This document shows, in pieces, positions 1 through 4,921 of a stretch of 37,950 bases of DNA. How positions within the stretch are numbered: position 1 is the first letter of the stretch; every line of letters begins with the position of its first letter. The translations under genes and the position numbers were made by a program. The notes under the pieces are model-generated. The model was not told the origin of the DNA. It did no database searches and saw only the letters and a list, made by a program, of their open reading frames with translations. The stretch comes from Gammaproteobacteria bacterium (lineage in GTDB: Bacteria; Pseudomonadota; Gammaproteobacteria; Pseudomonadales; Azotimanducaceae), in NCBI GenBank assembly GCA_020832055.1, contig JAFIFL010000010.1, positions 1 to 37,950 on the forward strand, read 5' to 3'.

Positions 1-200
1 CCTCCGATCAGCGCCTGGCGATCGTTCCTCCGCTGCGCTGCGGAACTTCCCACAGAGTGGGCGCCGCCCCATTGTGGGAAGGCCCTAATCCCGCAGGGAT
101 TGGGCCGATCTCGAAACGCCATCCCGAAGCTGAAGCCTGTCCCTCCGATCAGCGCCTGGCGATCGTTCCTCCGCTGCGCTGCGGAACTTCCCACAGTGGG
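1..200. repeat. Dispersed repeat array, copy A (3' of hemY): one full ~125-bp core (72-196) plus the end of another (1-54), period ~141 bp
   Basis: The 54-nt string cctccgatcagcgcctggcgatcgttcctccgctgcgctgcggaacttcccacag occurs at 1-54 and again from 142; core bounded by TTGTGGGA (72-79) and TCCCACAG (189-196); internal hairpin ggccctaatcccgcagggattgggcc at 81-106. Confidence 0.85.
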
Positions 201-229: not shown

Positions 230-1480
230 TCAGTGTCCTTCCTGGGGCATCGGTTGCTCTGGCAGCGGCAGTTCAGGCAGCAGCGTGCGCATCTGACGGA
301 CGCTTTCGGCCAGATGGCGGGCGGCGGCACCGTGGTCGCCGAGGTGCAGCAGCAACCGGCCGAGTTCGGCTTCCGCCTCCATGGTCTTGTCCTGGGCCAC
401 GCTGGCTTCCAGGTACTCCCTGGCCTTCTCCCACTGGTGGTGGCGCATCGCGAGTCGACCGAGCGTGAGCAGAAGCGCCGGATTGTTGGGCCGCGCCGTG
501 AGCCAGGCTTCTGCTTCAGCCAGCTGGGCGGCGGGATCGCTGCCCTTCACCCAGCCGTACAGTTCGATCAGTTCATTGTCCCAGTTCGCCCGCAGTCCCT
601 CGCGCAGCAGTTGTTCCGCAGCGGGCTCTGCGCCCAGATCCCGCAGCTCTCTGACCTGGGTCTGCAACAGCAGGGGATCCTTGCGCAGCGGTTTGGGGAT
701 CCGATTCCAGGCCTGCTCCAGCGCCTGTTGACGACCTTCCCGGCCCGCATCGACCCGGGCCGCGCGGTGCAGTTCCGCACACCAGACCTGTCGCTCCAGG
801 GCGACGCTGTCCGCTTCGTCCATGACGCCTGATCGGCGCAGATCCGGCAGGATTCCGGCCAGGGACTGCCAGTCTTCGAGGGCCTCGTAGGTCACCCGCA
901 GCATGCGCAGCACGGCGGCGTTGCGCGGGGCCTCCTTGCGCAGCTTCAACAGGGTGGCCAGGGCCTGTTCCCACTGCTCGTCGTCGATTTCCAGCGCCGC
1001 CCGGGTGATGCCGACCGCCAACCCGGCCTTGGGTGAGCCGACCCGCGCCGCTTCGAGATACTCATCGCGACCGGCAGCGTCTCCCATGCTGTGGGCGGCC
1101 CGCGCCGCACCGAGCTGGTTCACCAGCGGCTCATCCATGTGGTTGGACGCCGCGTCAAGTTCCTTGCGGGCGCGGGGCCAGTCGCCTTCGATGAGCGCCA
1201 GAAGGCCGCGGGTGGTTTCCTCCCGGACCCGGCGCTCCTGACGTCGATGCCGCCAGGCCTGGATGCTGCCGCGGCTGCCCAGCAGCACTGCCAGGATCAC
1301 CGCCAGCATGCGCCAGAGCAGCCAGCCGAGCAGAAGCAGCAGCAGCGCGAACCAGAGGCTGGTTTCCAGTGAGGCATCGCCCCACACCATGAGGACGTAG
1401 CCCGGATCGCGCGCAATCATGGCTCCGGCCACGCCGGCAATCAGCAGAACGAGCAGCAGTTTGAGTACCGAGGACCTCAC
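230..1480 (-). CDS. hemY: HemY-like protein (TPR-containing, porphyrin-cluster membrane protein)
   Basis: ORF 230..1504; likely GTG start at 1480 overlapping the hemX stop (GTGA); N-terminal TM segments, TPR-like helices; hemDXY order. Confidence 0.85.
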   Translation of the reverse strand: MRSSVLKLLLVLLIAGVAGAMIARDPGYVLMVWGDASLETSLWFALLLLLLGWLLWRMLAVILAVLLGSRGSIQAWRHRRQERRVREETTRGLLALIEGDWPRARKELDAASNHMDEPLVNQLGAARAAHSMGDAAGRDEYLEAARVGSPKAGLAVGITRAALEIDDEQWEQALATLLKLRKEAPRNAAVLRMLRVTYEALEDWQSLAGILPDLRRSGVMDEADSVALERQVWCAELHRAARVDAGREGRQQALEQAWNRIPKPLRKDPLLLQTQVRELRDLGAEPAAEQLLREGLRANWDNELIELYGWVKGSDPAAQLAEAEAWLTARPNNPALLLTLGRLAMRHHQWEKAREYLEASVAQDKTMEAEAELGRLLLHLGDHGAAARHLAESVRQMRTLLPELPLPEQPMPQEGH

Positions 1481-2712
1481 GGATTGGCTCCCATGGGCAC
1501 CCACGTGCGGACCGCATCCAGACGTCGCAGAGGCTCACTGATGTCAGGAGCGCTCACCCGGACGGGACGCTCCGCCAGCGCTTCGGCTTCATCGGCCAAG
1601 GCTGCAGCGTCGGGAAATTCGCGGATCCAGGCCGCGGCCCCGGTGAGGCTCCCAGCCCAGACATCCTGCTCGCCGCGCAACAGGGCGAGTTGGGCCTGGC
1701 TCAGGCGCAGCCGAATGTTGTGATGCCGCCAGAATGACGCATCCGGGGTCAGCAGGGCCCGAACCTGCTCGCCCCGATGGCGGCGGAAATCGAACAGTCC
1801 TCGCAGACGACGCTCCAGGGTCGCCAGCAGCCCGGAATCCTCGACCGAGGTCTCCTCTGCCATGTCGGGCTGCCTGAACTCCGGCCGGCTCATGGGCAGC
1901 GCGTCCACCGTCAGGGAGAGAGATTCGAGTTCCAGATAGAGCGCCACCCTGTCCACCGCAGGCTGCGCGGCCAGGGCAGCCTTGGCGTCCACCAGGGCCT
2001 CCCGCACTGGCACCAGGCTGTAATCTTCGATCTCGGACAGCACACCATCGGCAGCCGCGAGCAGATCATGGGCACCTCGCAGGTCCCGCTCCAGGCGGGC
2101 ACGCTGGTTGGCAATCCGCAGCAGATAGGCGGCCTCGGCAATGCGCCACTCCCGGGTGTCCGGCGGGCTGGCCTCCACCACCTGCCCCGCAAGGTCGCTG
2201 AAAGCCCGCCGCAGGCCCGCCACGGTGGCTTCGAGTTCCCGCTCCCGTTCCTGCAGCGACGCGGCCTGGGACTCCACATCATCGAGCAGCGTCGCCAGTT
2301 GCCGCTCGCTGCGATCGAGCCTTTGGCGCAGAGCCTGGACTCGTTCTTCAGCCCGATCATCCTGGTCGGAAACAGCCGACTCCAGCAGCGCTCGCTGAGC
2401 CTGCTCCAACTGAGCCAGCCGCTCGCGTTGCTCCCGGTCCAGGCTCGCGAGCTGGCCCTCCATCTCCTGGAGCAACCCGGCGCGGAGCCGACCCGTGTCG
2501 TCCTCGCCCTGCCATGCCAGCCACCAGGGCCAGCCCGCCAGCCCCAGAGCCGCCAGGGCCACGAGCAGAGCGAAGGCACCCAGACCCCGGCCACCGCGGC
2601 GCGGAGCATCGGGCTTGTCGCCCTTGCCGCCGCCCATGCTGATGGTTTCCGCCGGCGCTTTGGCTGGCGACTCCGGTTCGTCCTCGGAAGGTTGTTTCGG
2701 GGTATCACTCAA
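1477..2712 (-). CDS. hemX: HemX, uroporphyrinogen-III C-methyltransferase-like membrane protein
   Basis: Likely TTG start at 2712 (TTGA overlap with hemD stop) giving LSDTPKQPSEDEPES...; single TM LGAFALLVALAALGLAGWPWWLAW then coiled coil. Confidence 0.85.
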   Translation of the reverse strand: MSDTPKQPSEDEPESPAKAPAETISMGGGKGDKPDAPRRGGRGLGAFALLVALAALGLAGWPWWLAWQGEDDTGRLRAGLLQEMEGQLASLDREQRERLAQLEQAQRALLESAVSDQDDRAEERVQALRQRLDRSERQLATLLDDVESQAASLQERERELEATVAGLRRAFSDLAGQVVEASPPDTREWRIAEAAYLLRIANQRARLERDLRGAHDLLAAADGVLSEIEDYSLVPVREALVDAKAALAAQPAVDRVALYLELESLSLTVDALPMSRPEFRQPDMAEETSVEDSGLLATLERRLRGLFDFRRHRGEQVRALLTPDASFWRHHNIRLRLSQAQLALLRGEQDVWAGSLTGAAAWIREFPDAAALADEAEALAERPVRVSAPDISEPLRRLDAVRTWVPMGANP

Positions 2713-3446
2713 GGCGCATCTCCCATGCCCAGGGACGTGATCGCGGATACCGTCGCCATCGGGCCGGCTCCAGTGGCGCAGCATACTGCCTCGAATCCGG
2801 CCTGCCGCGCGGCTTGGGCCACCCGCTCGGATGGCACAATCAGGGGCGTCGCAGCAAGCGCGGCTCCGCCGCTTGCGAGCAGCGCCTGCAGCACCGCCAC
2901 ACTCGATACCACCAGGGCAGCGACTTCGTTCTGCTCAGGCAGCGTCACCGCCAATGGTACCCGCTCGTAAAGCTCGACGAACGTCACCCGCGCGCCCCGC
3001 TCGCGAAGGGCCTCCGCGAGCGTCTCCCGCCCGCCGTGACCACGCATGATCAGGACTTTTTCGCCCGCAACCTCGTTGAGGGGCGGCAGCGCCAGCAGGC
3101 CCTCACTGTGCTCGTCATCGGCAGCAGGCGCCAGCGCCTCGACGCCCCAGTCAGCGAGTACCTGTCGGGTCCGCTCACCCACGGCGACCCAGTGCACGGT
3201 GACGGGGAACTGCGGCCAGTAGCGATCGATGAGGGCCATGCCGAACTCGACGGCGGCCGGACTGACAAAGATCACCAGCCGGTTCTCCGCCAGGGCCTGA
3301 ATACTGGCCCGCATGGCCGGGGTTTCCGGCAGGGCCCGCCGGCCGAGAACCGGGAGCGCCTCAGCTTCGACGCCAGCGCCCTGCAGCGCGGCGACGGTTT
3401 CATCGGCGCCGGGCTGAGGCCGCAGAACGAGTACGCGCCGTTTCAT
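2709..3446 (-). CDS. hemD: Uroporphyrinogen-III synthase
   Basis: MKRRVLVLRPQPGADETVAALQGAGVEAEALPVL...; the annotated ORF start at 3548 lies in repeat DNA, so ATG at 3446 is preferred. Confidence 0.88.
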   Translation of the reverse strand: MKRRVLVLRPQPGADETVAALQGAGVEAEALPVLGRRALPETPAMRASIQALAENRLVIFVSPAAVEFGMALIDRYWPQFPVTVHWVAVGERTRQVLADWGVEALAPAADDEHSEGLLALPPLNEVAGEKVLIMRGHGGRETLAEALRERGARVTFVELYERVPLAVTLPEQNEVAALVVSSVAVLQALLASGGAALAATPLIVPSERVAQAARQAGFEAVCCATGAGPMATVSAITSLGMGDAP

Positions 3447-3853
3447 GAAACGCCAGCCACAGCTGGGACAACCCATGATCGAAGGTTGTGGGAAGCTGCC
3501 AACGCGCAGCGTTGCAGCGATCTGCGGAACGCATGGCCAGGGCGGCACGCGCTGCCTTCGATGAAGCGCAACGCCATCGGCCCATCCGGCTTTGCCGGAT
3601 AGGGCTCTCCCACAAGCAACAGTCCTGGGCCGAGGTTGTGGGAAGCTGCTAACGCGCAGCGTTGCAGCGATCTGTGAGGCGCATGGCCAGGGCGATACCC
3701 CCTGCCTTCGATGAAGCGCAACGCCATCGGCCCATCCGGCTTTGCCGGATAGGGCTCTCCCACAAGCAACAGTCCTGGGCCGAGGTTGTGGGAAGCTGCT
3801 AACGCGCAGCGTTGCAGCGATCTGCGGAGCGCTGGAGTCTCCACGCGTTTCAT
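3443..3853 (-). other. Repeat-derived ORF (136 aa) between hemC and hemD, possible translational bridge
   Basis: ATG at 3853-3851 overlaps the hemC TGA (ATGA) and TGA at 3445-3443 overlaps the hemD ATG (ATGA); made of ~50-aa repeats ...RRSLQRCALAASHNLGPGLLLVGEPYPAKPDGPMALRFIEG... Confidence 0.4.
3486..3835. repeat. Dispersed repeat array, copy B (hemC-hemD junction): 2 full 150-bp units plus a partial third
   Basis: Units start at 3486, 3636 and 3786 with ttgtgggaagctgcYaacgcgcagcgttgcagcgatctg; core 3486-3615 bounded by TTGTGGGA/TCCCACAA; hairpin gcccatccggctttgccggatagggc; 20-bp spacer gcaacagtcctgggccgagg between units. Confidence 0.95.
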
Positions 3854-4794
3854 CGGCCTTCGGCCAGGCGGATGGCTTCCTCCAGCAGGGGGCCGGCGCC
3901 GGCAGTCAGCAGATCTTCCGCGACGGCGATGCCGAGCGCTTCGGGATCGCGACCGCGACCTTCGGCGCGCAGGACCTTGCGGCCGTCGAGACTGGCCACC
4001 AGCGCTATCAGGGACAGTTCGTCACCGGCCTCGGTGGCATGGGAAGCCAGCGGGACCGAGCAGTTGCCACCCAGATGCCGGCTGACCGAGCGTTCGGCGC
4101 GCACACAGCGGCTGGTCACTGCGTCGTCGAGCGCCGCCAGCCATTGCCGAACGTCGGCGTCGTCGCTGCGGCATTCGATGCCGACAGCACCCTGGCCTCC
4201 CGCCGGGACGAACTCCGGCGGCCCGAGGCGGGCGGTGATGCGCTCGGCGAGTCCCAAGCGTTCGAGGCCGGCGCTGGCCAGGACAATGGCGTCGAACTCG
4301 CCGGAATCGAGTTTGCCGAGGCGCGTCTCCACGTTGCCCCGAACCGGAGCGGTCGTCAGATCCGGTCGGGCCGCGAGAATCTGGGTGGCCCGCCGCAGGC
4401 TTGCCGTCCCGACGCGACCGCCGTCGGGCAGAGAGGCCAGATCCCGGGCGTCGAGATCACCGCGCACCACCAGCGCGTCGGTGGGATCACCTCGGGCACA
4501 GATCACCGCCAGCATGAGCCCTTCCGGAAAATTCACCGGCACGTCCTTCATGGAGTGCACGGCAATGTCCGCGCTGCCATCGTAGAGTGCGGCTTCGAGT
4601 TCCTTGACGAACCAGCCCTTGCCGCCGATCTCAGAAAGGGGCGCGGACAGGAAACGATCCCCCTGAGTGCTCATCTTCACCAGCTCGACCTCGATGCCGG
4701 GATGCTCCTGCTGCAGCTGATCACGTACCCACTGCGCCTGCCATACGGCGAGATTCGAGGCGCGCGTGGCGATGCGTATTCTGCGATCGGTCAT
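3850..4794 (-). CDS. hemC: Hydroxymethylbilane synthase (porphobilinogen deaminase)
   Basis: MTDRRIRIATRASNLAVWQAQWV...; typical HemC sequence including GGQGAVGIECR. Confidence 0.97.
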   Translation of the reverse strand: MTDRRIRIATRASNLAVWQAQWVRDQLQQEHPGIEVELVKMSTQGDRFLSAPLSEIGGKGWFVKELEAALYDGSADIAVHSMKDVPVNFPEGLMLAVICARGDPTDALVVRGDLDARDLASLPDGGRVGTASLRRATQILAARPDLTTAPVRGNVETRLGKLDSGEFDAIVLASAGLERLGLAERITARLGPPEFVPAGGQGAVGIECRSDDADVRQWLAALDDAVTSRCVRAERSVSRHLGGNCSVPLASHATEAGDELSLIALVASLDGRKVLRAEGRGRDPEALGIAVAEDLLTAGAGPLLEEAIRLAEGR

Positions 4795-4860
4795 TCAAGA
4801 CTCCGTACTTCAGGCACCGCCGGGGTGCAATGGGTCGATATTTGCGGGGTGCAGGACTCT

Positions 4861-4921
4861 CAGCAACTGCTCACAGCAACTGCCCACAGCGATTGCCCAC
4901 AGCGATTGCTCACAACGATTG
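4861..4921. repeat. 13-bp short tandem repeat, ~4.7 copies, overlapping the algR 3' end
   Basis: cagcaactgctca|cagcaactgccca|cagcgattgccca|cagcgattgctca|caacgattg. Confidence 0.9.

Follow-up and report, generated by a model that had tools for sequence, protein, structure and literature searches.

Repeats on either side of the hemD-hemX-hemY genes are very probably REPINs, or BIMEs, mobilised by a RAYT that is encoded on another contig (C258) of the same genome, with arrays that grew by unit duplication. The window in which they lie is a stretch of 37,950 nucleotides from an uncultured gammaproteobacterium. The conclusion rests on the analyses presented here: the repeat family, its architecture, stem covariation, extragenic position, a RAYT gene flanked by REPs, the joint occurrence of RAYTs and REPs in the genus, and site occupancy specific to the lineage. 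For binding and cleavage by this RAYT, for the way in which the elements are copied and for any influence on hem expression, we rely on analogy with the E. coli system. REPs are palindromes of 20-50 nt behind a GTAG or GTGG tag that occur in inverted pairs and in tandem, beside a single tnpA-REP gene (PMC8266576, PMC3116915, PMC6006769, PMC3733652). All testable features of REPs, BIMEs or REPINs, and RAYTs were present here, save direct sight of movement.

An earlier note had described two diverged copies of one repeat family, copy A (72-196) and an inverted copy B (3486-3615), on both sides of hemD-X-Y. Copy A lies downstream of hemY and copy B between hemC and hemD. Our analysis confirmed that they belong together and that tandem copies adjoin both; the window holds three further copies, namely the half unit at 1-55, a second unit B2 and the half unit at 3787-3822 (Table 1). 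Copy A and reverse-complemented copy B share the TGTGGGA...TCCCACA ends, and the GCCCT-stem-GGGCCGAT block is present in both as claimed. The right end proposed as common, ...AGCTTCCCACA, does not fit copy A, which terminates in CTGCGGAACTTCCCACA, and its right-hand hairpin is therefore unlike that of copy B. The copies are thus better described as sub-types of one family than as simply diverged, the unlike right ends being further hairpin sub-types. Upstream of hemC, approximately four copies of a short 13-bp tandem repeat (TGCCCACAGCGAT-like) were also observed (window 4857-4921).

Table 1. Coordinates of the hem genes, the REPs and REPINs of the window, and the RAYT
Feature	Position	Strand	Remarks
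REPIN right half, cut by contig start	1-55	-	Identical to 142-196; contig starts at base 1
Inverted REP in half unit 1-55	20-54		Tag TGTGGGA on - strand
REPIN copy A, two inverted REPs, tags outward	72-196	+	ssDNA fold z = -3.15
Copy A left REP, GCCC type	73-110	+	TGTGGGA-AG-GCCC-T(bulge)-AATCCC-GCA-GGGATT-GGGC-CGATC; covariance model 58.2 bits
Copy A right REP, inverted, third sub-type	161-195	-	TGTGGGAAGTTCC...GGAACGATC; read from sequence
hemY	230-1504	-	Name from sequence and gene order, no profile search
hemX	about 1477-2784	-	Name from sequence and gene order, no profile search
hemD	2709-3446	-	Name from sequence and gene order, no profile search
Array B entire, in hemC-hemD gap	3483-3832	.	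Two and a half units
REPIN copy B1	3487-3614	.	Left REP 3487-3522 +, right REP 3575-3614 -; fold z = -4.12
REPIN copy B2, tandem to B1	3637-3764		Left REP 3637-3672 +, right REP 3725-3764 -; fold z = -4.29
Half REPIN B3, left REP alone	3787-3822	+	Covariance model and repeat comparison
hemC	3850-4794	-	Name from sequence and gene order, no profile search
RAYT, 157 aa	C258, L064 231-704		NCBIfam REP_Tyr_transpos

The hairpins follow a single plan. TGTGGGA and two further bases precede a lower stem of 4-5 bp, which one bulged base separates from an upper stem of 5-7 bp; the upper stem carries a loop of 3 nt, and CGAT follows the hairpin. In 189 of 192 hairpins the bulged base is T. One REP measures 36-41 nt, with GTGG 3-4 bases ahead of the stem, which agrees with REPs in size and tag. 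A published rule set (PMC6006769) allows 0-2 bases between tag and stem, from which these REPs depart slightly. TGTGGGA was followed by a bulged hairpin (score ≥9) in 185 of its 281 occurrences, whereas six control 7-mers composed of these letters gave 0-1 such cases each, and the association of tag and hairpin is therefore not due to chance. Among the lower stems, two sub-types predominate (GCCC...GGGC and GCGC...GCGC), next to a third one (GCTGC...GCAGC and its relatives). Upper stems vary more widely (AATCGC, AATCCC, AATTGC, ATTTCGC, ATTTGCC, ATCCGGC, ATCCGCC, ATCGCCC and AACGC).

The earlier note had observed that the stems of the two copies differ and still pair (AATCCC/GGGATT in A, ATCCGGC/GCCGGAT in B) and had taken this as a sign of selection on structure. 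Both points held, and these two stems are only two among many variants. In a set of 42 distinct hairpins, pairing was kept in 99.5% of stem cells (shuffled: 79.4%; slid: 25-44%), a percentage that is biased upward because the structure was read from these same hairpins, which were picked partly for pairing. Nine of the 11 stem pairs had changed on both sides, and two-sided changes occurred in 74 stem cells compared with 22.9 in shuffles, well beyond both the shuffled and the slid controls. The covariation score was 0.458 (shuffles: 0.173), a value reached by none of 500 shuffles. Paired-stem substitutions were therefore present across additional copies, as the note's reading required. The stems are kept by compensatory change, as is characteristic of REPs.

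Two unlike REPs, inverted and with their tags outward, make up one REPIN unit. The distance between the hairpins was 52-53 bp in 43 of 47 tag-outward pairs, and 40 of 44 distinct units combined a GCCC-type with a GCGC-type hairpin. Folded as single-stranded DNA, whole units were closed by TGTGGGA/TCCCACA and formed doublet hairpins (z = -3.15 to -4.35 relative to shuffles). Units are repeated in tandem with a period of about 141-165 bp and variable linkers of mostly 15 to 37 bp; copy B2 is 94% identical to B1 at a period of 150. With an inverted REP pair, a linker and tandem repetition, the units have the organisation of BIMEs or REPINs, which is the precise name for what the note, from size and tandem spacing, had called REP-like or non-autonomous and had set apart from a simple REP. 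The largest clusters contained up to five hairpins in this genome (G000) and 11 in its congener G001, where the longest assembled array seen packs them into 0.85 kb (L243 11541-12393).

Searching the genome for further copies, as the note had suggested, revealed hundreds. BLAST with copies A and B yielded at least 89 and at least 75 matches, respectively, and a covariance model of the single hairpin (R1) detected 239 hairpins in the 0.85 Mb of contigs that were sampled. A separate count by exact tag gave 192 hairpins in 0.85 Mb. In 59 contigs picked by number and not by content (0.65 Mb), 101 exact-tag hairpins were counted, giving by extrapolation ~670 per genome, an estimate likelier too low than too high because arrays are collapsed and contigs end in arrays. 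All copy numbers are lower bounds in an assembly that breaks at arrays. The hairpins occur throughout the genome, as inverted pairs and on either strand, and mapping showed the copies to be mostly extragenic: 9 of 192 hairpins lay inside predicted coding sequences, whereas a simple codon-usage gene finder assigned 80% of the sequence to genes. Of these nine, at least two lie under a wrongly chosen open reading frame over hemD. The family is thus high in copy number and mostly extragenic, as REPs are.

The draft genome is in 361 pieces. In 81 stretches, 20 of them picked for holding matches, 159 of 188 hairpins were located within 500 bp of a true contig end, a zone that makes up only 8% of the sequence. 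A tagged hairpin was present in the last 300 bp at 71 of 139 contig ends. REPIN arrays, in which about half of the examined contig ends lie, explain much of the fragmentation.

The note had advised looking for a RAYT or other transposase with matching ends, and a RAYT was found. Three Y1_Tnp genes are present in the genome (on C258, C136 and C15). The C258 protein matched NF047646 (REP_Tyr_transpos) with 130 bits (cut-off: 80) and PF01797 with 46.7 bits. Its best solved relative (phmmer) is 4ER8, the E. coli TnpA-REP, and in the alignment with the E. coli protein it keeps the HUH motif (DHVHW) and the tyrosine (ARYLVSDPVRSG). Judged from its sequence, it is a Y1 HUH protein of the REP-associated family and qualifies as a RAYT. 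Hairpins of the family stand upstream (L064 5-44 and about 75-115) and downstream (L064 728-1091) of the gene. REPs on both flanks of the single matching protein of the genome constitute a REPtron; a second RAYT could be missing from an assembly broken at arrays. The protein is 43-52% identical to Pseudomonas RAYTs and 30% identical to the E. coli RAYT over 89 residues.

The Y1_Tnp genes on C136 and C15 were considered as partners and rejected, since they are bordered by unlike motifs (GGGGTCAGACC-like, CTTAGA...TCTAAG) and no hairpin-model match was present in 8 kb around either. Their frames are longer (285 aa, L065 1600-2900, and 263 aa, L066 5200-6340, respectively), and they probably represent a separate type of Y1 transposase element with its own hairpin-like ends.

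RAYTs of congeners are 48-62% identical to the C258 protein, and the five closest RAYTs, C258 included, form a clade (support 95/90). Hairpins built in a similar way stand beside several congener RAYTs; next to the RAYTs of L145 and L146 the plan is the same and the bulged base is A. The numbers of hairpin-model matches in genomes of the genus were 32, 50 and at least 150 where a RAYT was present and 2 and 17 where there was none, and 23 relatives outside the genus yielded no match. G001 (92% complete) has identical hairpin sequences, and its sole RAYT (62% identical) is flanked by a third sub-type, so that the pairing of one RAYT with one REP is not clean there. This sub-family (GTGGGAAGTTTCCC...GGGGAACGATGG; L261 downstream of hemY, and L230 2068-2170) resembles the right end of copy A. 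L145 (SLKB01000016.1) belongs to a bin labelled Rhodobacteraceae, and its RAYT and hairpins group with this gammaproteobacterial genus, by mis-binning or transfer. In G028, of the same order, the hairpins flanking a RAYT (L234 1380-2105) read GTGG-GTTGC-AACGC-GCA-GCGTT-C-GCAAC and have their bulge on the 3' side of the stem.

Array B was absent from the hemC-hemD position in all five congeners examined. The two genes adjoin or overlap in G002, G003 and G005, and unrelated sequence separates them in G001 and G004. The array therefore looks like a lineage-specific insertion. After hemY, we found one different REP in G001, other GTGGGA hairpins in G004, and none in the other congeners. Occupancy thus differs from one species to the next, a pattern that mobile repeats would be expected to show. 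Comparison of G000 with G001 resolved no exact empty sites, because filled G000 sites often stop at contig breaks.

Other explanations were weighed against the REPIN reading. Inverted, outward TGTGGGA/TCCCACA ends and a size of ~130 bp would suit, in outline, MITEs that belong to a conventional DDE transposon and have TGTGGGA terminal inverted repeats. We consider this highly improbable, as conservation and covariation extend to two sub-terminal tagged hairpins and are not confined to the ends, and the gene with matching flanks is an HUH RAYT. Even less credible is a local tandem duplication with a structured RNA product (a non-coding RNA or a CRISPR-like array): compensatory stem changes and tandem organisation would suit it, but an Rfam scan of the window's first 4.2 kb gave no match above threshold, and the genome-wide dispersal in inverted pairs on both strands and the RAYT flanked by the copies speak against it.

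A less remote, still improbable explanation is that the hairpins persist chiefly because they terminate transcription or stabilise mRNA 3' ends, and that mobility is historical only. Such roles have been reported for REPs of other species (PMC8266576, PMC6006769), and six of nine internal clusters with a neighbour gene on each side lay between convergent genes, compared with 54 of 273 gaps >80 bp. However, a terminator needs neither tag, bulged base nor inverted pairing, array B lies within the operon-like hemC-hemD run, and the sites are not conserved among congeners; all these numbers are small.

Under the preferred reading of mobile REPINs, the C258 RAYT would most likely use its HUH motif and catalytic tyrosine to recognise single-stranded hairpins that bear the GTGG tag and the bulge. 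Cutting and rejoining beside the hairpin would spread REPINs between genes, and the tandem arrays would then enlarge as whole units were duplicated.

RAYTs of the Pseudomonas type as a rule have short perfect REPs (PMC8266576). Here the REPs are long and bulged, while the RAYT is closer in identity to Pseudomonas (group 3/subclass 2.5) proteins, a slightly unusual combination. Published rules admit long hairpins with bulges of 1-3 nt (PMC6006769), and heterodimers and bulged stems are known in E. coli (PMC8266576). We regard the heterotypic pairing, the invariant one-base bulge and a RAYT nearer to the Pseudomonas than to the E. coli type as modest variations. As a speculation that we think more doubtful than probable, a group 3-like RAYT lineage may read the unpaired base of long heterotypic REPs (T here, A in the L145/L146 lineage) as its recognition mark, with stems drifting by compensatory change and tag, bulge and CGAT kept. 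If true, bulge-marked recognition would be a third mode, next to the mismatch mode of E. coli and the perfect-stem mode of Stenotrophomonas/Marinomonas. The many stem variants around an invariant bulge offer naturally occurring material for learning what a RAYT reads. Our findings also document a complete REPIN-RAYT system from an uncultured group of gammaproteobacteria, one genus of which has several related RAYTs.

Among known systems, the GTAG-family head-head REP heterodimers (PMC3733652) share, in general plan, the tag-outward dimers, the conserved spacer, heterodimers of unlike stems and large tandem clusters. The REPINs of Pseudomonas fluorescens SBW25 (PMC3116915) resemble the present ones in their unit of an inverted REP doublet, in tandem clusters of near-identical units, in clusters beside a RAYT and in a GTGGGA-type tag (GI 16-mer GTGGGAGGGGGCTTGC). 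In contrast to SBW25, the hairpins here are longer (stem of ~11 bp), have one invariant bulged base and combine unlike REP sub-types within a unit. E. coli BIMEs with Y, Z1 and Z2 REPs and TnpA-REP (PMC8266576) likewise show heterotypic inverted pairs, irregular bulged stems, tandem BIMEs and a single RAYT flanked by its own REPs. They differ from the system described here in having GTAG in place of GTGG, an AA-GC mismatch in place of one bulged base, and a RAYT with the low identity given above.
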